From Granulicella sapmiensis (lineage in GTDB: Bacteria > Acidobacteriota > Terriglobia > Terriglobales > Acidobacteriaceae), in the NCBI GenBank assembly GCA_026225395.1, contig JAMFSR010000040.1, positions 1 through 64,000 of the forward strand: a stretch of DNA of 64,000 nt, written 5' to 3'. Of this stretch, positions 1,275 through 54,556 are shown one piece after another. The first letter of the stretch is position 1, and the number at the start of each line of letters is the position of its first letter. The translations under genes and the position numbers were made by a program. Under the pieces are notes generated by a model. The model did not search any database and had not been told where the DNA came from. It saw nothing but the letters and a program-made list of their open reading frames with translations.

Positions 1275-1304
1275 AGGAAGTAGGAAATAGGAAGTAGGAA
1301 ATAG
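1275..1304 (+). repeat. Heptamer tandem array (unit GAARTAG)
   Basis: About four consecutive 7-bp units alternate GAAGTAG and GAAATAG between the converging ends of the GNAT and MoaD-like genes. This is one of seven arrays (six loci) in the window that share a 7-bp period and a (T/C)(A/G)GG-like core. Confidence 0.8.
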
Positions 1305-1310
1305 CGAATG

Positions 1311-1616
1311 CTAGCCGCCCGCGATGGCACCGAGGATGATGAGGGGCTCTTTGCCTTCGAGGATGGTGGCGGGGAGTGGGGCGCAGGTGGGCTGGTGCGT
1401 GATGTCTTCCATATTGGCGAAGAAGCGCAGGAAGGCACGGCGTTCGAGGGTGACGTGGTCGCGGATGGTGCCGCGGAGCTGGGGGTAGAGGGCTTCGAGG
1501 GTGTCGAGGGTTTGGGCGAGGGTGACGGGGGTGGGGACGTCTAGCGTGGTTTCGTGGCCGCTGATGTTGGCGAGGCGGCGAAGGTGGAGGGGGAGTTCGA
1601 TGCGGATGAGGGGCAT
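1311..1616 (-). CDS. MoaD/ThiS family small sulfur-carrier-like protein
   Basis: A 101-residue protein with the beta-grasp (ubiquitin-like) pattern: an N-terminal strand (IRIELPLHLRR), a helix in the middle (TLAQTLDTLEALYPQLRG) and the ending IILGAIAGG. The exposed C-terminal GG is the residue pair that is adenylated and thiocarboxylated in MoaD and ThiS. The text between ('FFANMEDI') resembles the MoaD segment that carries NxE/D. No moa or thi partner adjoins it; thiE is 17 kb away. It may serve in molybdopterin, thiamine, or another sulfur-transfer route, or be a stand-alone family member. Confidence 0.72.
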   Translation of the reverse strand: MPLIRIELPLHLRRLANISGHETTLDVPTPVTLAQTLDTLEALYPQLRGTIRDHVTLERRAFLRFFANMEDITHQPTCAPLPATILEGKEPLIILGAIAGG

Positions 1617-1624
1617 GAAGGCAG

Positions 1625-1652
1625 GGGTTAGGGATTAGGGGTTAGGGATTAG
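1625..1652 (+). repeat. Heptamer tandem array (GGGTTAG/GGATTAG)
   Basis: Four 7-bp units alternate GGGTTAG and GGATTAG just upstream of the MoaD-like gene. The same alternation with one base changed (GGGTTGG/GGATTGG) recurs at 5521-5549. Confidence 0.85.
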
Positions 1653-1676
1653 GAAGAGCAACGGCAAGAACGGGAG

Positions 1677-1712
1677 GAAGCAGGTTCGTTCGCTGCGCTC
1701 AGAATGACAACA
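1677..1712 (-). repeat. Dispersed-repeat-like sequence (TCATTCTGAGCGCAGCGAA type)
   Basis: On the minus strand the sequence reads TGTCATTCTGAGCGCAGCGA and continues into ACGAACC. I recognise this as resembling the widespread short repeat whose conceptual translation is CHSERSE-like; here the minus frame reads CHSERSER. It lies between a heptamer array and a hexamer microsatellite. Recognition is from memory, not from a search. Confidence 0.5.
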
Positions 1713-1714
1713 AG

Positions 1715-1834
1715 AAAAGCAAAAGCAAAAGCAAAAGCAAAGACAAAAGCAAAGGCGGAGGCAGAAGCAGAAGCAGAAGCAGAAGCAGAAGCAGAAGCAG
1801 AAGCAGAAGCAGAAGCAGAAGCAAGAGCAACGGC
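1715..1834 (+). repeat. Hexanucleotide microsatellite (mostly AGAAGC/AAAAGC)
   Basis: Twenty 6-bp units of the form RRRRGC or close variants run without interruption. The first part is mostly AAAAGC; then ten identical AGAAGC copies occupy 1763-1822, followed by AAGAGC and AACGGC. The array ends 16 bp before the stop of the beta-propeller gene. It creates a spurious plus-strand frame of KA and EA dipeptides, which I do not treat as a gene. The 233-bp gap 1617-1849 consists almost wholly of repeats. Confidence 0.9.
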
Positions 1835-1849
1835 AAGTGCTTTCGTTCG

Positions 1850-2965
1850 TTACGCTAAAGTTTGGGCTTCGATGCTTAGGACGGCTGGCAGGTCGTGGGT
1901 GATGGCGTTCCAGCTGTCTCCACCGTCGGGGCTGCAGTAGACCTGGCCGCCGGTGGTGCCGAAGTAGATGCCGCAGTCGTCGAGCGTGTCGACGGCCATG
2001 GCGTCGCGGAGGACGTTGACGTAGCAATCTTTTTGCGGGAGGCCCTTGGTGAGGGGCTCCCATTCGTTGCCGCCGATTTTTGAGCGGAAGACCTGGAGCT
2101 TGCCGTCGAGGGGAAAGTGTTCGGAGTCGGATTTGATGGGGACGACGTAGACGGTTTCGGGTTGGTGGGAGTGGACGTCAATAGCGAAGCCGAAGTCGGT
2201 GGGGAGATTGCCGGAGATTTTGGTCCATTGGTCGCCGGCGTCGTCCGAGCGCATGACGTCCCAGTGCTTTTGCATGAAGAGGGTGTTGGGCGTGCGGGGG
2301 TTCATGGCGATGTGGTGGACGCAGTGGCCGACCTCGGCGGTGGGGTCGGGGATGTACTTGGACCAGAGGCCCTTGTTGATGGGTTTCCAGGAGAGGCCGG
2401 CGTCGTCGGAACGGAAGGCACCGGCGGCGGAGATGGCGACGACGATGCGGTTCTCGTTGGTGGGGTCGAGGATGATGGTGTGGAGACAGAGGCCGCCGGC
2501 GCCGGGCTGCCAGCCGGGGCCGGTCCGGTTGGTGCGGAGGCCGGAGAGCTCGTGCCAGCTGGCGCCTCCGTCGGTGGACTTGAAGAGGGCGGCGTCTTCG
2601 GCGCCGGCGAAGACGGTGTCCGGGTCGGTGAGGGAGGGCTCGAGGTGCCAGACGCGCTTGAACTCCCAGGGGTGGGGTGTGCCGTCGTACCACTGGTGCG
2701 TGCCGGGGACGCCGTCGTAGGTGAACTTGTTGTCGACGGGGTTCCAGGTGAGGCCGCCGTCGTCGGAACGCTGGATGACCTGGCCGAACCAGCCTGAGGA
2801 CTGTGAGGCGTAGAGGCGGTTGGGGTCGATGGGTGAGGCTTTGAGGTGGTAGAGCTCCCAGCCGGGGAAGTGGGGTTGGGAGATGTTCCAGGATTTGCGG
2901 ACGCCGTCGGAGGTGAGGATGAAGGCACCTTTCTTGGTGCCGACTAGGAGGCGTATGGAGGACAT
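1850..2965 (-). CDS. BNR/sialidase-like beta-propeller protein
   Basis: A 371-residue protein built from repeats with Asp-box-like motifs: [32 protein letters not shown] and SPDGGDSW (S/T-x-D-x-G-x-x-W/T). Such repeats form six- or seven-bladed propellers seen in sialidases, Vps10-type proteins and glycosyl-hydrolase-like 'WD40/YVTN' proteins. No signal peptide is present, so it is probably cytoplasmic; the enzymatic residues of sialidase are not evident and the function is unknown. The start at 2965 ([13 protein letters not shown]) has AGGAG six bases upstream; the frame stays open for 26 more codons upstream, but that part lacks a ribosome site. Confidence 0.82.
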
Positions 2966-3040
2966 GGATGGCTCCTGGGTTGCAACAGCAAAGCCTTGAC
3001 GCAAAGTTCGCAGTGTTGAGCGAAGTTTCGCAAAGTAAAA

Positions 3041-3088
3041 CACCCCACCGTTCGCTCTTGCAAGAGAAAACGGTGGGGTGGGTGGAGC
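3041..3088 (-). terminator. Intrinsic terminator of hppA
   Basis: The arms CACCCCACCGTT (3041-3052) and AACGGTGGGGTG (3069-3080) pair perfectly over 12 bp, with an inner palindrome CTCTTGCAAGAG in the loop. On the minus strand the hairpin is followed directly by TTTTACTTT, and it lies 16 bp after the hppA stop. Its sequence resembles the palindrome found inside thiE (19192-19228), so the terminator may derive from a repeat family. Confidence 0.8.
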
Positions 3089-3096
3089 GAGTGCCG

Positions 3097-5412
3097 CTAG
3101 AGGAAAAGTGGGGCCAGAACGAGGGTGATGGTTGCGAGAAGTTTGATAAGCACGTGCAAGCTGGGACCGGCGGTGTCTTTGAAGGGGTCGCCTACGGTGT
3201 CGCCGACTACGGCTGCTTTGTGGGCGTCGGATTTTTTGCCGCCGTACTGGCCGGTTTCAATCCACTTCTTGGCGTTGTCCCAGGCTCCGCCGCCGTTGTT
3301 CATCAGCATGGCTAGCAGGATGCCGGAGATGGTGCCGACCATGAGAAGACCGGCAACTGCAGAGGCTCCGCCCAGGTTGACGGGGATGCCGTTGATGGTG
3401 GGTACGAGGCTGGCCGCGCCGACAAGCGCGACCGACCCTGAGCCGTAGGTTGCGCTGAAGTTGCGGAAGATGAGGCCGACTGCGACCGGGAGGCCGACGG
3501 CGAGGATGCCGGGGAGGACCATCTCTTTGAGGGCGGCGCCGGTGACGATGGAGACGCAGCGGGCGTAGTCGGGCTTGCTTGTGCCTTCCATGATGCCGGG
3601 GTTTTCGCGGAACTGGTCGCGGACGTCTTTGACGACCATCTGGGCGGTGCGGCCTACGGCTTTGATCGCCAGCGAACTGAAGAGATAGGTGAGCATCGCG
3701 CCTAGCAGTGCGCCGACGAAGACGGGAATTTCAGCGAGATTGATGTTGGTGAAGGACCAGCCTACGGGCATGAAGCCTGCAGAGCCTGCGGCCTGGACCT
3801 TGAGTGTGACGAGCGACTTGATCTCTTCGAGGTAGGCGGAGAAGAGGAGGAATGCGGCGAGCGAGGCCGAGCCGATGGCGTAACCCTTGGTGAGGGCCTT
3901 GGTGGTGTTGCCGGCGGAGTCTAGCTTGTCGGTTTTGTCGCGGACTGAGTCGGGCTGGTTGGACATTTCGATGATGCCGCCGGCGTTGTCGGTGATGGGG
4001 CCGAAGGTGTCCATGGCGAGGATGTAGGCGGCGCAGGAGAGCATGCCCATGGTCGCGATGGCTGTGCCGTAGATGCCCTTGGCATAGTTGGAGATGTTAG
4101 CCACGCCGCTGAGACCTTGCACGCCGAAGTAGTAGCTCAGGAGCAGGGCGGCGGAGATAACCAGGACGGGCATGGCGGGGGTTTCCATGCCAACTGCGAT
4201 GCCGCTGATGATGTTGGTAGCCGGGCCGGTGAGCGAGGCTTCGGCGATGGACTGGACGGGGCGGTACTTGCTTTCGGTGTAGTACTGCGTGATCCAGACG
4301 AAGAGGAAGGCGGTGACCATGCCGGTGACGCCGCAGGAGAGCAGCCATCCCCAGGCGACGCCCGGGCCGTTGAGCATCATGTAGACCGCGCCGGCGAAAC
4401 CGCAGAGGGCGAGCGCGGAGGTGACATAGAAGCCGCGGTTGAGGGCGGACATGGGGTCTTCGGTGTCGTTGGTTTTGACGATGGCTACCCCGACGATCGA
4501 GCTGATGAGGTTGATGGCGTGGACGATCAGCGGGAAGAGGATGCCCTTGATACCGAAGACGGGGAAGAGTGCGGCGCCGAGGATCATGGCACCTACGTTT
4601 TCGGCGGCGGTGGACTCGAAGATGTCGGCTCCGCGGCCGGCGCAGTCGCCGACGTTGTCGCCGACGAGATCGGCGATGACGGCAGGGTTGCGGGGGTCGT
4701 CTTCGGGGATGCCGGCTTCGACTTTGCCGACGAGGTCGGCACCGACGTCGGCGGCCTTGGTGTAGATGCCCCCGCCGAGTTGGGCGAAGAGCGCGACGAG
4801 GGAGGCTCCGAAGCCGAAGCCTACTAGCTGGTAGGGGACTTGCTGTGGGTTAGTGAGGCCGCCGAAGGCGAGGAAGAGGATGGCGACGCCGAGCAGCGAG
4901 AGGGCGACGACGACGAGGCCGGTGACGGCTCCGCCGCGGAGGGCAGCTTGTAATGCGCCGTTGAGCGAGCTGCGGGCGGCGGAGGCGGTGCGGATGTTGG
5001 CGCGGATGGAGACGTACATGCCGGTGAAGCCGGCGAGGCCGGAGCAGATGGCTCCGACGAGGAAGGCGACGACGGTTTTGAGGGCGACGTCGTGAGTTCG
5101 GGGCGAGAAGTTATAGCCGCAGAAGACGATGATGGCGATGACCACGGCGAGGATGCCGATGGTCTTGTACTGGCGGGCGAGGAAGGCTTCAGCGCCTTCG
5201 CGGATGGCGTTGGAGATGGCCTGCATCTCTACCGTGCCGGTGTCGGCGGAGAGAACCATTTTGGCGAGCAGGAAGGCGGCGATGAGGGCGAGGATGCCGA
5301 CGCCGATGGCGATCCAGAGCCAGATGGCGTCGCTGGGATTTGTAACGTAGGCGGTGGTGTAGGTGGTTGTGGTGTCCTGGAAAAAGACTGCTGCGATTGC
5401 GCCGAGGTGCAT
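3097..5412 (-). CDS. hppA: Membrane-bound proton-translocating pyrophosphatase
   Basis: A 771-residue protein with about 16 hydrophobic segments. It couples hydrolysis of pyrophosphate to ion pumping across the inner membrane. Diagnostic elements are [12 protein letters not shown] and [17 protein letters not shown] (roughly residues 235-265), and [17 protein letters not shown] near the C-terminus, which bind Mg-pyrophosphate. The sequence [16 protein letters not shown] (about residues 498-513) has Lys where K+-dependent enzymes carry Ala; by the established A460K rule this predicts a K+-independent, H+-pumping type. GGAGG lies ten bases before the ATG. The upstream glycosyltransferase frame on the same strand overlaps its first ~60 codons in another frame. 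It ends in a strong hairpin terminator. Confidence 0.95.
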
Positions 5413-7169
5413 GCGGGGAGTGCCTCCATGGAACGCGATGTGGTGTCTCGCAACGCGGAAACAGCCGGCCAGCGGGACGGCGAATTAGAGCATACGGCTG
5501 AGGCAGGGTCAATGAAGCAGGGGTTGGGGATTGGGGGTTGGGGATTGGGCTTGAAAGTGTAGGCGTCGAATTCACCGTGGGAGCCGGCGTAGGTATAGTG
5601 CTGCCAAAGAGTTGCGAATGCGGGGTCGCGTTGGAAGAAGGCGAGTAGGTCGTCGTCGCGGTCTTCGAGCTCCTGGCAGTGGACGCTGGCTTTCTGGCAG
5701 CGGTGGATGAGGATGAGCTCGGGGCGCCAGCGGGTGAGGTCTTCGACCATCCAGCGATGCTGGAGGGCGTCGAGGCTGGCGATGGTGGATGGCGGCAAGG
5801 TGCGGGTAGGGGGATTGCCGGCGGCGGGTGTTTCGCTGCGAAGGATGGCGGGGAGCAGCCAGAGGTTGTTGGTGCGCTGGGCCCAGGTAAGGTGGTAGCG
5901 GGCGACAGGCATCATGGCTGCGTCGACTGAGGTAGTGAGGATGGCTACGGGGGTGTTGGGTGTGAGGCTGGCGAAGAAAGCTGGGTCGGGGCTGGTGATG
6001 GCGAAGGCGCGGTCTTCGGTGAAGGGTGAGCCGGTGAAGTAGGTGGTGAGAGCGAGAGCGATGACAGTGAGGGCGGCTGTGGTTTTGGGTAGCCAGGTCG
6101 GCAGGGTGAGGGGCTTGGTGGCGTAGAGGTCGAGCAACTGGAGGGTGAGGGTTGCGCCGAAGAGGCAGATCGCGGGGAGCTGCTGGTAGTACCAGCCTGT
6201 GCCCTGGATGAAGTAGGCGAGGGTCGCAGCTGTTGCGGCGGCGAGCAGGATTGTGATGAGGGTATCGCGGGGTTTGGTGCGGATGTAGAGGGTTATGGAG
6301 ATGACAGCGAGGATGAGGAGCTCGATGGCTTCGAGGGCGAGAGCGGGGATGGGGAGATGGCCGATGGCCCAGTAGGTGTCGCGGGTGATGGGGAGTGCCG
6401 TGGTGAAGTAGAGCGGGGTGAAGTGATGGATTGCCGCGAGGAAGGCGAGGCCGAGGAGGATGAGGAGGATGGTTTCGGGGCGGAAGAGGTTGCGGAGGCG
6501 GGAAAAGATTGGGGATTGGGGATTGGGGATTGGGGATTGGGTTGGGGTGAGGAGCAGGGTTAGTTCGATGGCGATGGGGATAAGGGCGTGGTGGGGTTTG
6601 AGGCAGATGGCGATGGCGGCGAGGATGGCGGCGGTTGTGCGGGCGAGAGTAAGCGGCGCTGTGCGGTAGGGGATGGCTGCGGCGAGGATGTAGGGCAGGA
6701 TGAGGAAAGCGAGCATCTGGTCCCGTTGGCCGAAGTCGCGGGCGGGGACGACGTAGAAGAGGACGATGGCGGCGAAGAGAAGGGCGGGGATTTCGTAGCG
6801 TTTTGTTGCAGGGCGGGCGCGGCGGAGGAAGTAGAGGCTGAGGAATGACGTTGCGGTTTCGAGGATGGTAACGAGAAGCTTGGCTGCGAAGGTTTCTGAG
6901 AGATGCAGTGTATGGGCGAGCAGGACGGGGATGGCCGAAAGCCAAACAATGCCCGGGGGGTTGGAGTCGAAGATTTCGGGGCCATAGATCTGGGCACCCG
7001 CGAGCCAGCGATGCGCCATCATAAGGAACCAGATCTGGTCATGTCCGGCGGCGGGTAAGAGGGCAAGAAGCGCGGCCATGCCGGCGGCGGCGAGGATCAA
7101 AATCCGAAAGGTGTTCTGGAACGTTTGCACTGTGGGTTTTACTGGTTGCGGATTGGATGGAATCGTCAT
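5229..7169 (-). CDS. Polytopic glycosyltransferase (GT39/ArnT-like), C-terminus extended
   Basis: The 646-residue frame begins with a hydrophobic N-terminus, then HDQIWFLMMAHRWLAGAQIYGPEIFDSNPPG: the first-loop Asp, and DSNPP, resemble lipid-linked-sugar glycosyltransferases of the PMT/ArnT group. At least eight membrane segments follow, then a soluble domain. The donor and acceptor are unknown. Two heptamer arrays lie in the frame: 6507-6541 (encoding SPIPNPQSP) and 5521-5549 (encoding PNPQPPIPNP). After the second array the last ~97 residues are Ser/Pro-rich, look out-of-frame, and overlap the start of hppA by 184 bp. The true protein probably once ended near 5520. The start at 7169 is the first ATG. 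Confidence 0.72.
   Translation of the reverse strand: MTIPSNPQPVKPTVQTFQNTFRILILAAAGMAALLALLPAAGHDQIWFLMMAHRWLAGAQIYGPEIFDSNPPGIVWLSAIPVLLAHTLHLSETFAAKLLVTILETATSFLSLYFLRRARPATKRYEIPALLFAAIVLFYVVPARDFGQRDQMLAFLILPYILAAAIPYRTAPLTLARTTAAILAAIAICLKPHHALIPIAIELTLLLTPTQSPIPNPQSPIFSRLRNLFRPETILLILLGLAFLAAIHHFTPLYFTTALPITRDTYWAIGHLPIPALALEAIELLILAVISITLYIRTKPRDTLITILLAAATAATLAYFIQGTGWYYQQLPAICLFGATLTLQLLDLYATKPLTLPTWLPKTTAALTVIALALTTYFTGSPFTEDRAFAITSPDPAFFASLTPNTPVAILTTSVDAAMMPVARYHLTWAQRTNNLWLLPAILRSETPAAGNPPTRTLPPSTIASLDALQHRWMVEDLTRWRPELILIHRCQKASVHCQELEDRDDDLLAFFQRDPAFATLWQHYTYAGSHGEFDAYTFKPNPQPPIPNPCFIDPASAVCSNSPSRWPAVSALRDTTSRSMEALPACTSAQSQQSFSRTPQPPTPPPTLQIPATPSGSGSPSASASSPSSPPSCSPKWFSPPTPAR
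5521..5549 (+). repeat. Heptamer tandem array (GGGTTGG/GGATTGG)
   Basis: Four 7-bp units alternate GGGTTGG and GGATTGG in the 3' part of the glycosyltransferase frame, about 109 bp before the hppA start. It has the same alternation as 1625-1652, with A changed to G at one position of every unit. Confidence 0.85.
6507..6541 (+). repeat. Heptamer tandem array (GATTGGG x5) inside a gene
   Basis: Five identical GATTGGG units sit inside the glycosyltransferase coding sequence. On the coding strand they are read as repeats of Pro/Ile/Asn/Gln/Ser (three units = 21 nt = seven codons). Confidence 0.9.
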
Positions 7170-7227
7170 AAGCTGAGTGCCGTCGCCTGCGTGGGACGCC
7201 CGGCTTGCGGAAGGTTCAGGTTATCGT

Positions 7228-9337: not shown

Positions 9338-9430
9338 GACTGTTGCTTAGAAGCTGGACGTGCATCCTATGGTGCTGCGGGGGTAGCATGGCTTGCGTGC
9401 TGTGCTCGACGCCGCATGGGAGACTTTTGG

Positions 9431-11194: not shown

Positions 11195-11222
11195 ACGCGC
11201 TGTTCCAGCTTGGGGTGGCCAG

Positions 11223-11268: not shown

Positions 11269-11325
11269 GCTGCTCGATCGGCCTAAGTAACGAAGCCGAT
11301 TGGGGTTGTGGCGCATCCAAACGCC

Positions 11326-14847: not shown

Positions 14848-14852
14848 CGAGG

Positions 14853-14880
14853 GTCCAGGGCTCAGGGCCCAGGGTTCAGA
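14853..14880 (+). repeat. Heptamer tandem array (GNYCAGG)
   Basis: Four units (GTCCAGG, GCTCAGG, GCCCAGG, GTTCAGA) fill the gap between the pepP stop and the accB ribosome site. Confidence 0.75.
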
Positions 14881-14903
14881 AGACGAAGCTAGGAGTTGGA
14901 CTG

Positions 14904-19586: not shown

Positions 19587-21188
19587 GTGATTCCAACGAC
19601 ATCGCAAGAAGCTGACCCTTCAGCTGCGCCTCAAACCGGGCATACGGTTGTGACTTCGACGCAGCCGCGGTTTGTGCAGGGCATGGGGTTGTTTTCGGCG
19701 ACGGCGATTGTGATGGGCTCGATGATTGGATCGGGCATTTTTATTGTGCCGGCGGAGATGAGCCGTGTGCTGGGGTCGCCCGCGTTGTTGATTGCGGCGT
19801 GGCTGGTGACGGCGGCGATGACGCTGATCGGCGCGCTGAGCTATGGCGAACTGGCGGCGATGATGCCGAAGGCCGGTGGGCAGTATGTGTATCTGCGTGA
19901 GTCGCTGGGGCCGCTGAGTGGGTTTCTGTATGGATGGACGCTGTTTATGGTGATCCAGACAGGGACAATTGCGGCGGTGGGTGTGGCGTTTGGAAAGTTT
20001 CTGGGGGTGTTCTTTCCTTCGGTGAGCGCGAGCCACTGGATTTGGCACATCGGGCATGTGCCGGCGTGGCCGGTGGGGCCGATGGTGCTGGGAAATATGG
20101 ACATCGGGTTGAACACGGCGAACCTGGCGGCGATTGTGGTGATCACGCTGCTGACGGCGACGAATACGCGGGGAATCAAGCTGGGTTCGGCGGTGCAGAA
20201 TGTGTTTACGAGCGCGAAGGTGCTGGCGCTGGTCGCGATGGTTGCTGTGGGGTTTGTGGCGAAGAATGCTGCGGCTGTGGCGGCGAACTTTGGTGCGGGG
20301 TGGCATGCGTTCTTTGCGAACTCGGGATGGCATACGTGGCACCAGGTGCAGGTGGGGGTTGGTGGGCCGATACAGTTTGTGGGGATCTTTACGGTGGTCG
20401 CGGTGGTGCAGGTTGGGTCACTGTTTTCGAGCGATGCGTGGAACAACGTAACGTTTACGGCGGGTGAGATTCGGAACCCGCGGCGGAATCTACCGTTGAG
20501 TCTGGCGCTGGGAACGGGCGTGGTGCTGCTGCTTTATGTTGCTTGCAACTTTGTGTTTCTGAGCGTGCTGCCGATGGTGGGGACGGAAGATGCGGCGACG
20601 CTGGCGGGGCGGGGGATTCAGTTTGCTTCGCAGGATCGTGTGGCAACGGCGGTGATGCAGGCGGCGTTCGGTGGGATTGGCGAGAAGCTGATGGCGGGGG
20701 CGATCCTGGTGTCGACGTTTGGGTGTGTGAACGGCATGCTGCTCGCCGGGGCACGGGTGTACTACGCGATGAGCCAGGATGGGCTGTTCTTCAAGAGCGC
20801 CGGTAGGCTGAATCCGAAGTCGAAGACTCCTGTGACGTCGCTGTGGATGCAGTGGGCTTGGGCTTGCCTGCTTTGTTTGAGTGGAAGCTATGGGCAGCTG
20901 CTGGATTATGTGATCTTTGCGGTGCTGGTGTTTTATGTGCTGACGATCTTTGGTTTGTTTGTGTTGCGGTTCAAGAGGCCGGATGCGGAGCGGCCTTACC
21001 GGGCGATTGGGTATCCTGTACTTCCAGCGGTTTACATCGTGATGGCGGTCTGGATTTGTGGTGTACTGTTGCGATACAAGCCTCAGTACACGTGGCCAGG
21101 ATTGTTGCTGGTGTTGCTGGGTGTGCCGGTATATGCCGTCTGGCGACGGCAGGGATTAGAGATCAGGGAACAGGGAACAGGAGAATAG
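19587..21188 (+). CDS. APC-family amino-acid permease
   Basis: 533 residues with about 12 hydrophobic segments. The first carries GSMIGSGIFIVPAEMSRVLGSP, the glycine-rich substrate-binding turn of the APC superfamily; SYGELAAMMPKAGGQYVYLRE follows. The layout resembles LAT/SLC7-type transporters, but substrate cannot be assigned. The gene uses a GTG start with GGAGAG just upstream. The last ten residues are encoded partly by a heptamer array (21154-21181). Confidence 0.9.
   Translation: MIPTTSQEADPSAAPQTGHTVVTSTQPRFVQGMGLFSATAIVMGSMIGSGIFIVPAEMSRVLGSPALLIAAWLVTAAMTLIGALSYGELAAMMPKAGGQYVYLRESLGPLSGFLYGWTLFMVIQTGTIAAVGVAFGKFLGVFFPSVSASHWIWHIGHVPAWPVGPMVLGNMDIGLNTANLAAIVVITLLTATNTRGIKLGSAVQNVFTSAKVLALVAMVAVGFVAKNAAAVAANFGAGWHAFFANSGWHTWHQVQVGVGGPIQFVGIFTVVAVVQVGSLFSSDAWNNVTFTAGEIRNPRRNLPLSLALGTGVVLLLYVACNFVFLSVLPMVGTEDAATLAGRGIQFASQDRVATAVMQAAFGGIGEKLMAGAILVSTFGCVNGMLLAGARVYYAMSQDGLFFKSAGRLNPKSKTPVTSLWMQWAWACLLCLSGSYGQLLDYVIFAVLVFYVLTIFGLFVLRFKRPDAERPYRAIGYPVLPAVYIVMAVWICGVLLRYKPQYTWPGLLLVLLGVPVYAVWRRQGLEIREQGTGE
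21154..21181 (+). repeat. Heptamer tandem array (GANYAGR) at a gene's 3' end
   Basis: Units GATTAGA, GATCAGG, GAACAGG and GAACAGG lie within the last codons of the permease gene, giving its C-terminal LEIREQGTGE. Confidence 0.8.
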
Positions 21189-44431: not shown

Positions 44432-44437
44432 CCCAAA

Positions 44438-45292: not shown

Positions 45293-45378
45293 GCGGTCCT
45301 TCTATTACTGGCTAAGTCTGGGTGAGCCGCACGATGGCGCAGCTCTGCCTGAAGTTTATAGGATGTGGCGGAAAGGAT

Positions 45379-45969: not shown

Positions 45970-45996
45970 AGATGTCTTAAAGTGCTCAGGACAATT

Positions 45997-46875: not shown

Positions 46876-47110
46876 AGTCACTGTAAGAATAGCAAAGGGA
46901 GGCGGCTCCGGAAGTCCACATTCTTCGAGTTTGTCGTGATGGAAAACGGTTTTGGGTTGATGAAGGAAGATTGTCGCCGGGGAGGAGTTTAATACCGAGT
47001 TTGATTCCCCCTGAATTTGTTTCTGGAAGAGGCGGACTTGGGGCCTCATACTGGAAGAGGTAATGTCAGTAGCTTGAGCACGTTGCAACGAGCTACTGAA
47101 AGGGCTACTG

Positions 47111-47503: not shown

Positions 47504-47559
47504 CATTTCCTGAGACTGCAGGAACGTTCCGGATCGCATGCCGCTGGTTTATTGCCGTG

Positions 47560-48345: not shown

Positions 48346-48402
48346 GCTGGAGTTATCTTATGTGGTGGAGAATTCGCTATTTGTTCGCTTATGATTGTTT
48401 CC

Positions 48403-49221
48403 ATGCAGCGGCGATTGAGTGCGAATGGTTTGAGGCTTGAGGTGAATGCGCGGAGTGTCGCGCGGGGTGAGAGCTTTGCGCATGAGATGACGTTCGGTAC
48501 AGCGCCTAGCGTGATCTATAGCGGTGATGGCGGAGTGCATGGGAATTTTCTGGCTGCAGCGTATCGGCGAATTTGTGCTGATGCTGAGTGGAGCAAGAGA
48601 CTGGGCAAGAGTTATACGGCTAGTGCGCGAGTGCCGAGGGCTGCGGATCGATGGCGCGGAGAGTTGGAGTGCGCGAGCAGCTCAGATGCTCTGTTGATGA
48701 ACCTGTTTTGTTATCCGCGGGTGCTGTGTCGACCGGGTGTTTGCTCGTTGTTGGGCGTGGAAGCTGGGCTGAAGCCAGAGTTTGGAGCGCGGGCTCGGAT
48801 TGCGATGCGGCGCGATGAGGTGGACCGCACCGAGCTGGACATGAGGTTGGGAAATTTGATGGTGGAAGCGAAGCTGACCGAAGGCGGGTTTGGGACGGCT
48901 TCCGGACAGAGGTTGATGCGTTATTGCGCCGTCGATGCGGTGTTCGATGTGGAAGAGCTGCCGTGGTCAGGGGATGTGGTCCACGGGTATCAGCTTGTGC
49001 GAGGCGTACTGGCGGCTGTGCAGGAAGACGCGCGCTTCATGGTGTTGTGCGATGGACGCCGGGCGGACATGACAGAGATGTGGTTCCGGGTACTGCGGGC
49101 GTTGAGGAGCTACGAGTTGCGGAGCCGGATGGCATTGCTGAGCTGGCAGGAGTTGGCGGGGGTGATGCCTGCGGCGGTGAGGGAGTTTTTGGCGGAGAAG
49201 TATGGAATTGTCGCTGCTTAG
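48403..49221 (+). CDS. PD-(D/E)XK nuclease-like protein (PGN_0703-type)
   Basis: About 272 residues, no signal peptide. Residues 140-163 read VDRTELDMRLGNLMVEAKLTEGGF: an acidic Glu/Asp pair, a hydrophobic strand, then E-A-K, fitting the PD-(D/E)XK catalytic core; LMRYCAVDAVF and RFMVLCDGRRAD follow. The overall pattern recalls the PGN_0703-type putative restriction endonuclease family. No methyltransferase or specificity subunit is near. An ATG at 48391 is also in frame. Neither ATG has a good ribosome site. Confidence 0.55.
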   Translation: MQRRLSANGLRLEVNARSVARGESFAHEMTFGTAPSVIYSGDGGVHGNFLAAAYRRICADAEWSKRLGKSYTASARVPRAADRWRGELECASSSDALLMNLFCYPRVLCRPGVCSLLGVEAGLKPEFGARARIAMRRDEVDRTELDMRLGNLMVEAKLTEGGFGTASGQRLMRYCAVDAVFDVEELPWSGDVVHGYQLVRGVLAAVQEDARFMVLCDGRRADMTEMWFRVLRALRSYELRSRMALLSWQELAGVMPAAVREFLAEKYGIVAA

Positions 49222-49242
49222 ACTTGCGGCAGGTAAGAGAAG

Positions 49243-50508
49243 TTACAGGCTTGGCTCGTCCGGGTCGTAGGTCATGCCTTCATGTTTGTGATTCGGGGCA
49301 TGTTGCGCGCGGTAAATGCCGGCGTGTCCGGAGAAAAGATAGCTGAGGATGCAGGCGATTCCGGCGAAGGCTCCGGCCTCAGAGCCGAAGAGCTCGAAAG
49401 CCATGAAGGTGGAGGCGATCGGCGTATTGGCGGCGCCGGCGAAGACGGCTACGAAGCCCATTCCGGCGAGGAGCGATGCAGGTAGCGGCAGTATGTGCGA
49501 GAGCGCGTTGCCCAGCGTCGAACCGATGAAGAACAATGGGGTGACTTCGCCGCCCTTGAAGCTCGCACCGAGAGTGACGGCGGTGAAGAGGAACTTCGCG
49601 GCCCAATCGTAAACGGGGAGCTGCTGGTTGAAGCTGGCGACGATGGTGGGGATGCCAAGGCCGATGAATCTTGTGCTGCCACAGGCGAAGACGGCCGCGG
49701 TGACGAGCAGCCCGCCGGCGGCCGGGCGCAACGGAGGATAGCTGATGCGGCTGCGAAAGAAATGGGAGATGGCATGCGTCGTGCGTGCGAAGGCCATGCC
49801 GACAAGACCGAAGATGATTCCCGCAGCCATGGCAGCGAAGATGCCCTTGACGGTGATTGTTGGGACCGACGTAACCGTGTAGATAGTGTGGTGGATGCGC
49901 CAGGCTTTGGTCGTGAGGTCGCCAAAGAAAGCGGCGAGCAGGCAAGGTGCAAGGGCTTCATAGTTGACGCTGCCGATAGCGAGGACTTCCAGGCCGAAGA
50001 CGGCGCCGGAGAGCGGAGTCCCGAAGACGGAGCCGAAGCCGGCGGCGATGCCGCACATCAGCAGGATGTGACGTTGACGCGGGTTGAGGCCAAGCGGCCT
50101 GGTGAGCTGGTCGGCGAGCGATGCGCCGGTCTGGATGGCAGTGCCTTCGCGTCCGGCAGAACCTCCGAAGAGGTGTGTGAGGAAGGTACCGATCAGGATA
50201 AGCGGCGTCATGCGGACGGGGATGACTTCGCTGGGGCTATGGACCTGCTCGAGGATGAGGTTGTTGCCCGCTTCCACCTTGCGGCCAAGATAGTGATACA
50301 TGAGGCCGACGAGGACGCCGACCGGCGCGAGCAGAAGAATCAGCCAGTGGTGGGCTTCGCGTATGTCTGTGGCGACATTGAGTGACCACAGGAGCAGCGC
50401 GGACGCTGAACCGGCAAGGATGCCGACGGCTGCGGAGATGGGAATCCAGCGGGCGAGGACCAGGAGCTGTTTCAGTGTGGAGCTGAAGCGGGGCGAGGTT
50501 TTGGGCAT
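49243..50508 (-). CDS. CLC-type fluoride/proton antiporter
   Basis: 421 residues with the ClC fold. LFGGSAGREGTAIQTGAS (about 111-128) is the form of the selectivity region found in fluoride-specific CLC-F proteins rather than chloride CLCs, and GFGSVFGTPLSGAVFGLEV and GGEVTPLF follow the family. It exports fluoride in exchange for protons at the inner membrane. The assignment is strengthened by a fluoride riboswitch directly upstream (50514-50574), whose hairpin covers the ribosome site. No crcB is seen here. Confidence 0.9.
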   Translation of the reverse strand: MPKTSPRFSSTLKQLLVLARWIPISAAVGILAGSASALLLWSLNVATDIREAHHWLILLLAPVGVLVGLMYHYLGRKVEAGNNLILEQVHSPSEVIPVRMTPLILIGTFLTHLFGGSAGREGTAIQTGASLADQLTRPLGLNPRQRHILLMCGIAAGFGSVFGTPLSGAVFGLEVLAIGSVNYEALAPCLLAAFFGDLTTKAWRIHHTIYTVTSVPTITVKGIFAAMAAGIIFGLVGMAFARTTHAISHFFRSRISYPPLRPAAGGLLVTAAVFACGSTRFIGLGIPTIVASFNQQLPVYDWAAKFLFTAVTLGASFKGGEVTPLFFIGSTLGNALSHILPLPASLLAGMGFVAVFAGAANTPIASTFMAFELFGSEAGAFAGIACILSYLFSGHAGIYRAQHAPNHKHEGMTYDPDEPSL

Positions 50509-50513
50509 ACGGC

Positions 50514-50574
50514 CTCCTACGAGATGTAGGAGTTATCAGCTCTGGGAGCAGAGCGGCCGGCGAACCCCATCGCC
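50514..50574 (-). ncRNA. Fluoride riboswitch (crcB motif) with translational switch hairpin
   Basis: On the minus strand the aptamer starts GGCGATGGGGTTCGCC (50574-50559), continues with a GCTCTG/CAGAGC hairpin and ends CTGATAACTCCTAC (to 50526). GGGGTT in the first loop pairs with AACTCC at the end, the pseudoknot expected of the crcB motif. Then CTCCTAC (50526-50532) pairs with GTAGGAG (50514-50520), which holds the GGAGG ribosome site of the CLC gene. Fluoride binding should keep the first CTCC in the pseudoknot and free the ribosome site. Confidence 0.9.
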
Positions 50575-50648
50575 ATGGATGTGTATGGGTTCACGATAAC
50601 AGCGGGGTCGGGGAGCGTCAACGGCAAAGCATGCACGCTTGATCCTGA

Positions 50649-52043
50649 TTAGATGGGAACGACGACGGGCGGAATCGCGGAAGGATGCTTTTTTCGACGT
50701 TTGTCTTCGTACATGCTGGCATCGGCTTTCGCGAGAAGTCCTTCAAGGCTCACGACCATATCCGTGCCCGAGGCGATGGCGCCCATGCTAAAGCTCAATT
50801 GATATTTCCGCATAGGCAGACTATTGGCCCGGGCGACTGCTTCATCAAGCCGACGAGCGACGTTCGCCATTTCGGGATCGTTCGATTCTCCCGCGACTAC
50901 GAACTCATCTCCCCCAATTCGTCCGATGACGTCGGTTTTCCTGAAAGTTCGAACGAGAAGGGAGGCCATTTCCTGCAGCAATTCCGAACCGACTTCGTGA
51001 CCAAGTTCGTCGTTAACCTGTTTGAGGTTATCCATATCGAAGAAAAGCACTGTAAAGGAATCGCGAGTCCGGTGGGCTAGCTGGAAGGCCTGTTCGGCAA
51101 GGACGTAAAAGCCCCGCCGGTTGTACAGGCCGGTCAGATCGTCTCGAAGGGAAAGTTCGTGGATGGTCGCTTCGAAGGCTTTCGTCCGCCAGCCGAGGAG
51201 AAGAACGAGACAGACGGCAACGATGGCAAGAATGGCCGTAGAAATCGCTGTCAGGGCGATCTCCCTGTCGGGGGTGAGTCGAACAAGCACTTCCTTTGGG
51301 ATGACGATAACAAAAGGCAGAAGGATAGCTAATGGGGTAGCGTTCCGCACGGTCATGCCCCCACTGCCGCGATCGAGGAAGATGGCAAAAAATCCATACT
51401 CCGCACGTCTGCTTCCTACAAGGCAGATCAGGAGCAGGAGACAAACCAGGGTCTGAACAGAAAAGGGATTCTCTTCATGGTTGACGAAGAGGTGACTCAA
51501 CCCGAAGAAGTACCGGGCCAGGAAAACGAGCATGGACAGGCAGAGGAAGAGCGTGGTGATGTCGATCAGACGAGAAAGAACACTTTTGCGGGCGCGAAGC
51601 GCTGACAGTACGATACCCAGCAGCAGAAAGGTTAGCGCTGCCTCAGGGGAGACCTTGCCCGGATACATGGCCTTGGCGTCAGCAGCCAAAAATGTGTTGA
51701 TGCCGAGGTTGATGATGGCAAAGTCTTTGAGGAGGATCAGGGCTGCAAAGACCGTGACGAACCCGGCCAGAATGCGAGCCGCCAGGAGGGCCGCTCTGGA
51801 ACGGCGCGGGAGCGACAGGGTGACGCTTAGTCCGCAAAGAAAGGTTAGGAGGGAAGTATTTGCCCTCATGAGGTGAAAGGCGTTTGGGAGAAGCGCTCCG
51901 AAGGGAGGGATGACCCAGTCCGCGAGTGTGATCCCGCTAAAGACTACGACGGTTGTGAGGAAAACGACCTGCAGATGCCCGAGGACGGAGCCAACGCGTT
52001 TGTCAGGCTGGATGGAGGCAAGAGGAATGACGGTTGATTTCAT
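50649..52043 (-). CDS. Membrane-bound diguanylate cyclase (GGDEF)
   Basis: 464 residues. About seven to eight N-terminal hydrophobic segments (to about 280) form a sensory membrane domain; a GGDEF domain occupies the last 160. The active site is GRIGGDEFVV (about 373-382) and the product-inhibition site RKTD lies five residues before GGDEF, so both activity and feedback control look intact. It makes cyclic di-GMP. DDLTGLYNRRGF starts the domain. The ligand sensed is unknown. Confidence 0.92.
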   Translation of the reverse strand: MKSTVIPLASIQPDKRVGSVLGHLQVVFLTTVVVFSGITLADWVIPPFGALLPNAFHLMRANTSLLTFLCGLSVTLSLPRRSRAALLAARILAGFVTVFAALILLKDFAIINLGINTFLAADAKAMYPGKVSPEAALTFLLLGIVLSALRARKSVLSRLIDITTLFLCLSMLVFLARYFFGLSHLFVNHEENPFSVQTLVCLLLLICLVGSRRAEYGFFAIFLDRGSGGMTVRNATPLAILLPFVIVIPKEVLVRLTPDREIALTAISTAILAIVAVCLVLLLGWRTKAFEATIHELSLRDDLTGLYNRRGFYVLAEQAFQLAHRTRDSFTVLFFDMDNLKQVNDELGHEVGSELLQEMASLLVRTFRKTDVIGRIGGDEFVVAGESNDPEMANVARRLDEAVARANSLPMRKYQLSFSMGAIASGTDMVVSLEGLLAKADASMYEDKRRKKHPSAIPPVVVPI

Positions 52044-52415
52044 GTGTGCCGTCGTCCCCTCTCAGTGCTCTTGCGGGAGTGATTGGCCCGTGTCAGGTTG
52101 CCGCCATACTACTCGAACTTTCGTGCGGAGATCGTACGCTAAGTGGCTTCAGATGGTTTGGATGCCGGATTCCCTCTGGGCGGCGATATTTCTACAGAAC
52201 GAGCGATTGACCAGCTACAACTCTAGAGGCATGATCGGGCGGGCTTTCCAGTTTCTGATACGGTTTAATGAAAGATCCGGTTAATCAAAGCTTGGAATCG
52301 AGGAGGTCGTTTGAGCGACCACCATTTGACCTACGGGGTCTGACAAAGAGTTCCGTTTGCAGGCGATTTGCGGTTTTTCTGGATGGAGAGTTCTGCCGGT
52401 TTTGAGGAACGTTTG
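52044..52415. other. 372-bp divergent intergenic region
   Basis: It separates the minus-strand diguanylate cyclase from the plus-strand glycosyltransferase and should hold both promoters. I see no clear -35/-10 pair, hairpin or gene in it. Confidence 0.4.
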
Positions 52416-53477
52416 ATGCGCGTATTGTTTGTGACCTGGGACGGGGCCGGGAATCTGCCTCCTACACTTGCCCTGATATCGGCTCTCTCTGCACGAGGCC
52501 ACGAAGTTATTGTCCTTGGTCATGATTCGCAGGAGAGCGAAATCACGCAGAGTGGCGGCGAGTTTCGGCGGTTTGCCACCGCTCCACAGCTCGACCAGGG
52601 GAAAGCGCAAGCTGGTTTCGATTTTGCGTCATGGCTTCAGGGCTTCAACGAAGTGGCGGCTCGCGACTTTATGGCTGAAGCATCGCGGGTCGATCCAGAC
52701 ATATTGATTGTCGATTGCATGATGGGACCATCGCTTGCGATGGGCTGGTCTATCGGGAAGAAGCTGGTTGCGTTGGTGCATGGAGTCTACAGCGCCATGA
52801 CTCCGTGGAGCGAAATGATCAGCGCTGCCGATCTTTCGCTTTGCTGCTCGTATGAGGCCTTTGACGTTGGAGCCAAGTTTCCGAAGAACATGGTGTTCGT
52901 TGGGCCTTTGCGGTCTGTCGTTGCCGGACGGCCATACGCGAGGAAATTGGCGGAACGTCCGCTGGTGGTTGCAAGCCTGAGCAGTGGACACCAGGGACCG
53001 TTCCAATTGGGTCTCCTGCAGCGCGTCTGTGATGCTCTTTTTACACTGCCTGTCGAAGGATTGGTGACTACGGGACGTGGCATCGCTCCAGAGGAACTGA
53101 CGGCAGGGGAGAATGTAACGATCGAACGCAACATCGACCATGGGCTCACGCTGCCCGAGGCATCGCTCTTCATCACCCATTGCGGCCATGGATCGGTGAT
53201 GGCTGCGCTGAAGGCTGGAGTGCCCATGCTGTGCCTGCCGCCCGTCGCCGACCAACCGCACAATGCCGAGCTTGTGAAGCGGCTTGGATTGGGCGAGGTG
53301 CTGGATGTGATGGTGACGCCGGCGGTTATTGCCGAGGCTGTTACCCGGTTGACCGCAAAAGGCAGTTTCTGGGGCGGCAACAAGGTACAGAAAGCGGCTA
53401 AGAGTTTCGCGAAGAAAAACACGTATGAACCGCGGGTCGAGCAGGCCGTCGAATTGCTTGAGAAGTTGGCGGGCTAG
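52416..53477 (+). CDS. UGT-like glycosyltransferase (GT1/MGT type)
   Basis: 353 residues, GT-B fold. The N-terminal VLFVTWDGAGNLPPTLALISALSARGHEV and the C-terminal donor-binding ITHCGHGSVMAALKAGVPMLCLPPVADQPHNAE (about 252-284) match macrolide/UDP-glycosyltransferases. It is shorter than the usual ~400 residues. The start at 52416 has GAGGA about eight bases upstream; an earlier in-frame ATG at 52368 is less supported. Acceptor unknown. It converges on galE with a 3-bp gap. Confidence 0.85.
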   Translation: MRVLFVTWDGAGNLPPTLALISALSARGHEVIVLGHDSQESEITQSGGEFRRFATAPQLDQGKAQAGFDFASWLQGFNEVAARDFMAEASRVDPDILIVDCMMGPSLAMGWSIGKKLVALVHGVYSAMTPWSEMISAADLSLCCSYEAFDVGAKFPKNMVFVGPLRSVVAGRPYARKLAERPLVVASLSSGHQGPFQLGLLQRVCDALFTLPVEGLVTTGRGIAPEELTAGENVTIERNIDHGLTLPEASLFITHCGHGSVMAALKAGVPMLCLPPVADQPHNAELVKRLGLGEVLDVMVTPAVIAEAVTRLTAKGSFWGGNKVQKAAKSFAKKNTYEPRVEQAVELLEKLAG

Positions 53478-53480
53478 GCG

Positions 53481-54449
53481 CTACTTGTAGCGCTGCTGCT
53501 GCCACTCCCAGGCGCTGGCCAGGATGCTATCAATCTCTGAGATCCTGGGCTTCCAACCGAGTTCGGCCTTGGCTTTTTCGGAGCTGGCGACGAGGCGAGC
53601 CGGGTCGCCCGGGCGGCGGGGCTTCATCTCCACCGGAATGGCATGGCCGGTGACGCGGCGAGCGGACTCGACGACTTCCTTTACAGAGAAGCCGCTGCCA
53701 TTGCCGAGATTCATGATGAGCTTGTCGCGGGTGTCTAACGCTTGCAGGGCAAGGATGTGAGCGTCGGCAAGGTCGCGGACGTGGATGTAGTCGCGAATGC
53801 ATGTGCCGTCGGGGGTGTCGTAGTCATCGCCGAAGATAAAGATCTTGTCGCGGCGACCGAGCGCGACATCCAGGATGAGCGGGATGATGTGGGACTCGGG
53901 CTCGTGGGCCTCGCCGCGATGCGGCAATGCGCCCGCAACGTTGAAGTAGCGTAGTGAGGCATAGCGAAGGCCGTGGATCTGGTGGAACCACCTGAGCATG
54001 TACTCGACCAGAAGCTTGGACTCGCCGTAGGCGTTGGTTGGATCGAGCGGCGCGGTCTCTTCGATGGGCACAGAGCGGGGTTCGCCATAGACGGCCGCCG
54101 TCGAGGAGAAGACGAGCTTCTTCACGCCGGTAGCAAGCATGGCTTCGAGCAGCGCGAGCGTGGAGGCCGTGTTGTTGCGGAAGTAGATCTCCGGGACGCG
54201 CATGGAATCGCCAGCCTCGATGAGTGCGGCGAAGTGGAGTACGCCGTCCGGCTTGAGCTCGCGGAGAAGGGCTTCGACCTGTGGGCGGTCTGCGATGTCG
54301 GCTTCGACGAACTCGGCGCCGCTGGGGACTTCGTTGCGCTTGGAATGGCAGAGGTTGTCGAGAATAGTGACGCGGTGGCCGGCCTCCATGAGGATGGTGG
54401 CGACCGTGCCGCCGATGTATCCTGCGCCGCCTGTGACGAGAAGGTTCAT
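53481..54449 (-). CDS. galE: UDP-glucose 4-epimerase
   Basis: 322 residues of the extended SDR family. NLLVTGGAGYIGG holds the NAD-binding GxxGxxG at the N-terminus and AYGESK (about 147-152) the YxxxK catalytic pair. It interconverts UDP-galactose and UDP-glucose in the Leloir pathway. The ATG at 54449 has GGAG five to six bases upstream. It is the third gene of a galK-galT-galE series, separated from galT by a heptamer inverted-repeat region. Confidence 0.95.
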   Translation of the reverse strand: MNLLVTGGAGYIGGTVATILMEAGHRVTILDNLCHSKRNEVPSGAEFVEADIADRPQVEALLRELKPDGVLHFAALIEAGDSMRVPEIYFRNNTASTLALLEAMLATGVKKLVFSSTAAVYGEPRSVPIEETAPLDPTNAYGESKLLVEYMLRWFHQIHGLRYASLRYFNVAGALPHRGEAHEPESHIIPLILDVALGRRDKIFIFGDDYDTPDGTCIRDYIHVRDLADAHILALQALDTRDKLIMNLGNGSGFSVKEVVESARRVTGHAIPVEMKPRRPGDPARLVASSEKAKAELGWKPRISEIDSILASAWEWQQQRYK

Positions 54450-54470
54450 GAGTGCTCCGAAGTGTTGCAA

Positions 54471-54556
54471 GAGTGTAGAGGATAGAGTGCAGAGGATAGA
54501 GAAGGCAGGTTGGCGTTAGGATTTTCTCTACACTCTATCCTCTACTCTCTACACTC
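54471..54556. repeat. Inverted pair of heptamer arrays between galT and galE
   Basis: The left arm (54471-54498) has four units GAGTGTA, GAGGATA, GAGTGCA, GAGGATA; the right arm (54529-54556) has four units of the complementary strand, including TACACTC and TATCCTC. The arms can pair imperfectly into a long hairpin. The right arm runs into the last codons of galT. Confidence 0.8.

Follow-up and report, generated by a model that had tools for sequence, protein, structure and literature searches.

The seven heptamer arrays in the window, a 64-kb stretch of DNA from the soil bacterium Granulicella sapmiensis analysed at its full length, are real and far above chance, and together with their counterparts elsewhere they probably arose as a very short dispersed DNA module was copied, whole, to new places. 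All seven loci with a 7-bp period listed in the initial annotation were present, with boundaries refined (e.g. to 1623-1650, 5519-5546, 14850-14877 and 21151-21178), and their features are as follows.

1275..1302, plus strand: four-heptad array AGGAAGT AGGAAAT AGGAAGT AGGAAAT (AGGA dialect), with AGCGAAT next; starts 3 nt downstream of the stop codon of a GNAT-family acetyltransferase gene (753-1271)
1623..1650, plus strand: four-heptad array AGGGGTT AGGGATT AGGGGTT AGGGATT; 5' end separated by 6 nt from the start codon of a small ORF on the minus strand (1311-1616)
5519..5546, plus strand: four-heptad array AGGGGTT GGGGATT GGGGGTT GGGGATT; overlaps the 3' part of a long minus-strand membrane-protein ORF, upstream of an H+-pyrophosphatase gene
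6507..6541, plus strand: five GGGGATT units (35 nt), antisense within the minus-strand membrane-protein ORF (7169-5572)
14850..14884, plus strand: AGGGTCC AGGGCTC AGGGCCC AGGGTTC and cap AGAAGAC (heptads alone 14850-14877); 2 nt downstream of an M24 peptidase stop codon, directly ahead of a biotin-carrier (accB-type) gene
21151..21178, plus strand: AGGGATT AGAGATC AGGGAAC AGGGAAC, in frame at the extreme end of the amino-acid permease ORF 19587-21188
54470..54506, plus strand: left arm of a convergent pair, AGAGTGT AGAGGAT AGAGTGC AGAGGAT and cap AGAGAAGGC (heptads alone 54470-54497); an epimerase (galE-type) gene starts 20 nt from its 5' end
54507..54520, no strand: short spacer separating the capped arms of the galE-galT pair
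54521..54557, minus strand: right arm of the pair, AGAGTGT AGAGAGT AGAGGAT AGAGTGT and AGAGAAAAT (heptads alone 54530-54557)

The array at 6507..6541 codes for QSPIPNPQSPI in the minus-strand ORF and was missing from all seven aligned orthologues of that ORF, whilst the right arm at 54521..54557 contains the present stop codon of galT. By eye ORF 1311-1616 had appeared MoaD-like and ORF 5572-7169 ArnT-like; neither ORF had a Pfam match.

A period-7 self-match scan returned five arrays in the window, against an average of 0.0 over 40 shuffles under an order-4 Markov model. Two arrays, those starting at 14850 and 54470, score below the self-match threshold and were detected by TRF and by a grammar scan. 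One shared grammar does underlie the arrays, as the initial annotation proposed, whilst its template RNNYRG(G/A) proved to be a more restrictive version, in rotated register, of [A/G]G-xx-NN-[C/T]. Under the latter grammar the core is mostly fixed within one array and NN is variable, with several 'dialects' side by side in one genome. G-richness did not hold up as a common feature, since the AGAG, AGGT and AGTT dialects show the same layout. The arrays at 1623 and 5519 do carry the same alternation, with an A/G difference in three of the four units rather than in every unit. The expected excess over shuffled sequence was borne out: across 847,034 bp (17% of the G. sapmiensis genome) the grammar scan found 36 arrays of at least four units, against 0-2 in shuffles (0, 0, 0, 0, 1, 2, 1, 0, 1 and 1 in ten order-5 shuffles) and one in the reversed sequence. 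In the same sample this detector gave 37 arrays at period 7 and 0-5 at nine other periods, and a looser scan gave 43 arrays against 0-1 in eight shuffles and six in the reversed sequence. The arrays at 5519 and 6507 are omitted from the grammar scan because it requires A-started units; both are contained in the self-match and looser scans. Since the grammar was drawn up after the arrays had been seen, the shuffle and reversal controls protect against chance rather than against over-fitted detail.

Pattern searches among 61 genomes placed the dialects unevenly. The AGTT dialect occurred in 26 of the 61 genomes, with 120 matches of various NN in G001 and none in G. sapmiensis, and the AGGG, AGAG and AGTT patterns had no match in seven same-genus genomes. 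No arrays occurred in 120 kb of G016 or in one 200-kb block of G025, which speaks against copying; eight other G025 stretches (L169-L176), three of G027 and those of G056 had been picked for containing arrays. In the AGGG search, mirror-symmetric AGGGATT arrays contaminated the reversed-pattern control (24+14 in G. sapmiensis versus 32+39 in the control); the control of the AGAG search gave 0 in G. sapmiensis and 1-9 in G001, G007, G017, G019, G025, G027 and G053, and that of the AGTT search mostly 0, the exceptions being G031 with 2, G038 with 3 and G051 with 29 but no true match. The capped AGGG search had control matches in 5 of 199.

Location at gene ends applied to most arrays in the window, those at 6507 and 21151 lying inside open reading frames. 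Using boundaries from a home-made gene finder, as in all the boundary counts that follow, and excluding the 7 of 31 arrays that overlapped a predicted gene, 22 of 24 intergenic G. sapmiensis arrays had their 5' end at most 20 nt from a gene boundary, against 52 of 451 random positions; 16 of the 22 abut stops and six abut starts (at 2-20 nt). A wider set of 46 that includes G-started arrays, from which 10 overlapping a gene and one without a neighbour were excluded, gave 30 of 35 within 20 nt of a boundary (21 at stops, nine at starts). In other samples, where arrays without a neighbouring gene were excluded, 13 of 25, 4 of 6, 2 of 3 and 5 of 7 were boundary-abutting. None of the 24 arrays and 3 of the 35 in the wider set lay between divergent genes, compared to 99 of the 451 random positions; the three divergent cases speak against copying. 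Within coding sequence, mnmG carried an in-frame match of at least four units in 10 of 30 loci, with differing dialects.

Placement this precise, with its polarity towards stops and starts, is what would be expected of selected boundary signals (G-quadruplexes, RNA hairpins or protein sites with YAG every 7 nt) that arise repeatedly through their usefulness in shielding the 3' ends of mRNAs, insulating genes from their neighbours or controlling translation, an explanation we consider unlikely. This explanation is favoured also by the galE-galT pair, whose 151-nt region is predicted to form a long hairpin (-56.7 kcal/mol, a value uncalibrated against shuffles), and by the similar placement of the Xanthomonas/Nostoc and Beggiatoaceae repeats discussed below. 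At rplW-rplB an array or an alternative hairpin occupies the same spot in many species (partly by eye), a recurrence which could mean selection for structure and to that extent speaks against copying. However, a canonical three-tetrad G-quadruplex is possible in just 12 of 46 G. sapmiensis arrays (6 of 31 in the narrower set without G-started arrays, where the AGGG dialect accounts for them with 6 of 9), an inverted partner of at least 10 nt within 160 nt accompanied 4 of 31 arrays, two of these being the window pair, and 29 single arms of 35 nt folded like shuffles (mean z of -0.12 against mononucleotide shuffles, 3 of 29 below -2), so that no one structure is common to the arrays. G-quadruplex formation was rejected as the common cause on the count of 12 in 46 and because dialects without GGG keep the boundary-abutting layout. 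The absence of AGGG, AGAG and AGTT matches from seven genomes of the same genus, and the presence of arrays within coding loops, likewise argue against selected signals.

The commonest array length was four units. Same-core runs of at least three units in G. sapmiensis, all dialects included and runs of two uncounted, numbered 17 of three, 25 of four, one of five, two of six and one of seven; A-started arrays alone, with one deviant unit allowed, numbered 13 of three, 29 of four, one of six and one of seven. In G056 there were six of three, 12 of four and four of five. Some length, order, pairing, placement and fold counts excluded G-started arrays, which the wider recount (46 arrays) includes. 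The arrays could be ordinary heptanucleotide microsatellites, generated by local polymerase slippage and retained where harmless, i.e. at gene ends, though we regard this as somewhat less likely still than selection for boundary signals. Period 7 does stand out, and some arrays are long, pure and slippage-like, an observation that counts against copying. Unit order, too, was not kept in four of seven sets (permutations as good out of 500: G. sapmiensis AGGT 180, G. sapmiensis AGGG 99, G007 165, G056 390) and was weakly kept in the G027 set (30 of 500). Yet slippage would homogenise whole units, whereas most arrays listed keep the core while positions 5-6 vary, and it does not lead one to expect a length peak at four units (25 at four versus one at five). 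In two sets unit order was retained: in the G. sapmiensis AGAG set unit 1 was TGT in 11 of 11 arrays, and in the G025 AGGG set (n=21), as in the former, none of 500 permutations was as good. Identical multi-unit words also recur at unlinked loci, the right-arm 28-mer of the galE-galT pair being found twice more in G002 stretches and its first 25 letters having 14 occurrences listed on nine contigs of G023. Retained unit order, a mode at four units and the recurring words thus weaken the case for slippage alone.

Comparison of orthologous gaps for presence or absence, as the initial annotation had suggested, revealed that arrays differ among species at three junctions. At galT-galE the facing pair of the window had no counterpart, with arrays at 0 of 19 other syntenic junctions from 17 genomes (24 loci, of which four were not syntenic and the truncated match L370 was left out); 10 of these 19 junctions overlap or span at most 8 nt. 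The gap between a BNR gene and the small ORF, which holds the 1623 array, measures 233 nt in G. sapmiensis from ORF coordinates, compared to 3, 4, 3, 5, 8 and 11 nt in six relatives and 18-61 nt in ten more. In 13 of the 30 loci the BNR end or the small ORF escaped detection, and some of the start codons used were guesses; arrays were present in 0 of 29 BNR loci of relatives. At M24 peptidase-accB arrays occurred in 3 of 28 genomes in three spellings (by eye), those of G016 and G019 being imperfect, and the junctions of G002 and G023 had no array. Taken together, conserved unit order, the recurring word and the junction differences favour whole-module copying over slippage alone. The length mode at four units, the boundary placement, the predominance of convergent pairs (below) and the mnmG matches count for copying too. 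Of the earlier suggestion of an active copying process, copying stands on unit order in two sets, words at unlinked loci and presence/absence at junctions, whilst 'active' is drawn from differences between species.

REP/REPIN elements are short, intergenic and dispersed, and are paired in inverted orientation; a single REP unit is an imperfect palindrome with a conserved 5' tetranucleotide, and the RAYT gene is flanked by elements. The arrays are likewise short and dispersed and form inverted pairs: with three-unit runs allowed, neighbours within 250 bp in four genomes comprised 23 convergent, two divergent and five same-strand pairs, just two of the 23 convergent pairs coming from the G. sapmiensis sample. 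Mobilisation of REP/REPIN-type elements by RAYT (Y1_Tnp) transposases is nevertheless very improbable. Y1_Tnp genes are present in 52 of 61 genomes, the convergent arms resemble a REPIN layout, an array lies within 1.5 kb at 6 of 30 Y1 loci, and the seven genomes without pattern matches have 0-2 Y1 genes. Against this, 4 of these 6 loci look by eye like one orthologous gap 600-700 nt from the transposase domain, such that arrays near Y1_Tnp mostly represent a neighbouring gap; among the 30 loci (best matches, about 1.5 kb each side) none had arrays on both sides of Y1_Tnp, and six had them on one side. Y1 starts adjoin GC hairpins (of the GGGGCAACGCCCC and GGGCTGAAAGCCCG type, by eye) unlike the heptads, single arms have no hairpin tendency, and the array-bearing G001 and G006 carry one Y1 gene each. 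Spacers, too, are unconserved: comparison of 17 of the 23 convergent-pair spacers (those of at least 25 nt) revealed no shared sequence, with one low-complexity pair, so no interior moves along with the arms and a composite element with a conserved interior is unsupported. A three-frame stop-codon element (TAG every 7 nt) was set aside, since C often takes the Y position and arrays within genes do not interrupt the reading frame.

Under whole-module copying, the module would usually consist of four heptads sharing one 'AGxx' core, two dialects often ending in an AGAARRC-type cap, over about 28-37 bp. Whole modules, besides single units, would be copied, singly or as a facing pair across unrelated spacer DNA, and new copies may be tolerated chiefly where no gene is broken, at gene junctions and in variable protein loops. 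Such copies could end up contributing stop codons, the bases immediately ahead of start codons or peptides in frame, and the dialects expanded would differ by lineage. We infer that copying proceeds by insertion; neither a target-site duplication nor a copying enzyme was found, which speaks against it.

Cyanobacterial STRR are intergenic heptanucleotide tandem repeats. The likeness to STRR noted earlier remains one of several, and two other families look closer from the available text. The first comprises the quadruplex-forming heptad repeats GGGAATC and GGGGA(C/T)T of Xanthomonas and Nostoc (Rehm 2015, PMC4692102), which prefer four units, form convergent pairs (70 and 75 cases in Xanthomonas, few in Nostoc), lie directly behind stops in sense orientation or directly ahead of starts in antisense, and are under-represented between divergent ORFs; that paper also cites Calothrix heptanucleotides and a slippage origin for heptameric repeats in general. 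As described there, these repeats resemble the present arrays in fitting [A/G]G-xx-NN-[C/T], in four-unit preference, convergent pairs and stop/start polarity, but have mainly one unit type per species and a G4 interpretation, whereas the present arrays comprise several mostly non-G4 dialects per genome and differ further in varying NN, the AGAARRC-type cap (two dialects), recurring multi-unit words and coding-loop copies. The second comprises the TAACTGA direct repeats of Beggiatoaceae, some Cyanobacteria and Bacteroidetes (MacGregor 2015, PMC4679880), whose copy number is two to six in the main genome and up to 43 elsewhere, most sets being a few nt from a start codon where canonical ribosome sites are rare, and some in r-protein operons. 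The TAACTGA reverse complement rotates to AGTTATC, i.e. AG-TT-AT-C, and fits the AGTT dialect; unlike the mainly stop-side arrays described here these repeats are start-side, and the available text of PMC4679880 reports neither a mode at four units nor frequent convergent pairing. In keeping with the earlier statement that no description exists in Acidobacteria, none was found in the one open-access library searched, a source which cannot prove absence; the word 'Acidobacteri-' is absent from the main text of Rehm (2015), and the available text of the RepRanger paper (PMC12306157) gives REP predictions for Granulicella aggregans.

The G. sapmiensis tags thus look like an undescribed short DNA module copied around genomes, and two published heptamer families of other phyla match their grammar and placement. 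We suggest, tentatively, that one cross-phylum class of mobile four-heptad modules might underlie both the Xanthomonas/Nostoc G4 and Beggiatoaceae TAACTGA repeats, with an enzyme copying modules into gene boundaries and the core dinucleotide 'xx' shifting by lineage to give the dialects. The results shift this heptamer class away from the label 'G-quadruplex microsatellite' and closer to a copied module defined by a grammar, and the old question of heptamer over-representation in bacteria becomes testable by strain comparison. They also point to the arrays as a supply of new stop codons, of DNA between genes and of protein loops in frame, the tRNA-modification gene mnmG being one example.

The window was placed on contig C19 of a draft genome of 4.98 Mb, and its BNR-repeat protein showed 77-88% identity to the full-length matches found in ten further genomes from its GTDB genus, the best named matches being Granulicella paludicola (84%) and Bryocella elongata (81%). 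All seven heptamer arrays proposed in the initial annotation are present:

1275, heptamer array
1623, heptamer array
5519, heptamer array
6507, heptamer array inside a gene
14850, heptamer array
21151, heptamer array
54470 and 54530, facing pair at galT-galE

Five of the seven pass a strict period-7 scan, which returned nothing in 40 shuffles, and the other two pass TRF and a grammar scan. The proposed common template was borne out, one register giving [A/G]G-xx-NN-[C/T] for the units; inside an array NN varies whilst the core xx, whose spelling we term the dialect, is mostly fixed (e.g. AGGGTCC AGGGCTC AGGGCCC AGGGTTC). A 107-bp hexamer array (AAGCAG, ~18 copies; 1717-1823) shares a 233-nt gap with the array at 1623, so several repeat kinds are gathered there.

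These arrays belong to a class that is spread across the genome in several dialects and consists mostly of four-heptad modules. The comparison with shuffled sequence, set beforehand as a check, gave 36 arrays of at least four units in a grammar scan of 847,034 bp (17% of the G. sapmiensis genome), against 0-2 in each of ten order-5 shuffles and one in the reversed sequence. In this sample 37 arrays were found at period 7 versus 0-5 at nine other periods, a looser scan gave 43, and the union of the grammar and looser scans is 46. Same-core runs of at least three units numbered 17 with three units, 25 with four, one with five, two with six and one with seven. The fourth unit is followed by the end sequence AGAGAARRC in 7/11 AGAG arrays and by AGAARRC in 4/10 AGGG arrays of G. 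sapmiensis and 14/21 of its relative G025. A-started arrays of at least four units in G. sapmiensis were spelled AGAG (11), AGGG (9), AGGT (8), AGGA (2) and AGTG (1).

Dialect patterns were also counted over whole genomes, as overlapping matches. AGAG has 99 matches in G. sapmiensis (control 0) and occurs in 15/61 genomes, every one from its GTDB genus; AGTT occurs in 26/61, with 120 matches in relative G001 and none across the whole G. sapmiensis genome; and AGGG occurs in 31/61, its control being contaminated. Capped AGGG was found in 14/199 genomes drawn across the phylum, from six families.

The claim that arrays lie at or near gene ends holds for most of them, and their placement is oriented. 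With genes called by a home-made gene finder, 24/31 G. sapmiensis arrays were intergenic versus 451/3000 random positions. Read in array orientation, 22 of the 24 had their 5' end no more than 20 nt from a gene boundary (16 of them at stops and 6 at starts; median distance 5 nt), compared with 6/24 for 3' ends (median 76) and 52/451 for random intergenic positions; none of the 24 occupied a divergent junction. The corresponding values for the wider set of 46 arrays were 30/35 (21 stops, 9 starts) for 5' ends, 9/35 for 3' ends and 3/35 for divergent junctions, and in other samples 5' ends adjoined boundaries in 13/25 (G025, including chosen stretches), 4/6, 2/3 and 5/7. Array neighbours within 250 bp were convergent in 23 cases (only two from the G. 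sapmiensis sample), divergent in two and same-strand in five; the 17 of 23 convergent spacers compared, each of at least 25 nt, shared no sequence bar one low-complexity pair. Six arrays of about four dialects occupy gene gaps in one G. sapmiensis stretch (L123, C5:10001-30000), an apparent ribosomal-protein operon in which rplB was confirmed and the other genes were assigned by eye.

At five loci (window 1623, L127:5222, L199:19176, L201:1398 and L132:16550) the array lies 2-6 nt upstream of a start codon, and in the rows checked by eye such starts had no Shine-Dalgarno sequence. TAACTGA repeats likewise adjoin start codons (MacGregor 2015, PMC4679880), with starts lacking a Shine-Dalgarno sequence reported beside them.

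Orthologous gaps, compared for presence and unit identity as the initial annotation had proposed, differ between genomes. At galT-galE, the window carries a facing AGAG pair, with a TAG within the array now closing the galT frame. No array was found at any of the 19 other syntenic junctions compared (17 genomes), ten of which are overlapping or at most 8 nt long. In relatives G002 and G023 this junction (L351, L352) holds, in place of heptads, a GC hairpin (GGGGCGGGCKTCAGCCCGTCCGTAC) that resembles a REP-type element occupying this kind of site. The gap between the BNR gene and a small ORF is 233 nt with one array in the window (length from ORF coordinates) and 3-61 nt in the 16 relatives whose junction could be parsed, six of them at 3-11 nt. 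By eye, the M24 peptidase-accB junction has arrays in 3/28 genomes, each spelled differently (AGGGTCC type in G. sapmiensis, AGGGATT in G016, AGTCAGC in G019). Straight after the rplW stop, before rplB, AGGG arrays occur in G000 and G007 and AGTT arrays in G001, G015, G016, G017 and G010, among others, while the remaining species show either a different hairpin or nothing evident (partly by eye). In a gap near a gene for a RAYT-type transposase domain (Y1_Tnp), four species share the position of an array of ~4 units, but its units differ between them.

Arrays also occur within genes. The 6507 array encodes QSPIPNPQSPI and is absent from seven aligned orthologues (of nine matches in other genomes). 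MnmG (TIGR00136) has an in-frame match of at least four units at 10/30 loci, several forming facing pairs:

G. sapmiensis, AGAG and AGGG
G025 and G017, AGGGNNC
G027, AGGGATT/AAC
G007, AGGGAGT
G005, AGAGGAT
G006, G012, G014 and G018, other spellings

The short-looped mnmG of G009 has no array. In loop 1 of G002 and G023 (L232, L233) a 7-aa repeat, SASQQVS (21 bp), points to one more heptad dialect. The C-terminal part of the M24 peptidase (L387, L388, L390, L393, L395-L400) has lineage-specific insertions, placed between EPGAYL-type and FGVRIED segments, that are not obviously heptads and mark another permissive loop.

The class has no one common structure, since a three-tetrad quadruplex is possible in 12/46 G. 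sapmiensis arrays, an inverted partner of at least 10 nt within 160 nt exists for 4/31, and the folding of single arms does not exceed that of shuffles. By geometry the arrays belong beside the Xanthomonas and Nostoc heptads, but as a whole fail the G4 feature of that family. GGGAATC and GGGGA(C/T)T repeats of the same geometry were interpreted through G4 by Rehm et al. 2015 (PMC4692102), whose main text lacks the string 'Acidobacteri'. TAACTGA, rotated on the other strand, reads AGTTATC and fits the [A/G]G-xx-NN-[C/T] grammar. In one open-access library no paper treating TAACTGA and GGGAATC repeats together was found, nor, in agreement with the initial annotation, any description under acidobacterial names; Mrazek and Huang 2014 surveyed tandem repeats across phyla, Acidobacteria included.

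The initial annotation proposed an active copying process. Copying of whole modules should conserve unit order between loci. Such order is conserved in G. sapmiensis AGAG arrays (n=11; unit 1 TGT in 11/11; 0/500 permutations as good) and G025 AGGG arrays (n=21; 0/500), and long words recur: one 28-mer is common to the window and two places in G002, its first 25 letters having 14 listed occurrences spread over nine G023 contigs. Order is weakly conserved in G027 (30/500) and not conserved in G. sapmiensis AGGT (180/500) and AGGG (99/500), G007 (165/500) or G056 (390/500). Slippage probably acts as well, because long pure arrays are also present. The modules behave like small dispersed elements settling at gene boundaries. 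Seven genomes of the same genus (G003, G004, G008, G009, G011, G024 and G026) have no AGGG, AGAG or AGTT match and 0-2 Y1_Tnp genes, whereas congeners carry many array matches, and together these offer a useful contrast in the hunt for a putative copying enzyme.
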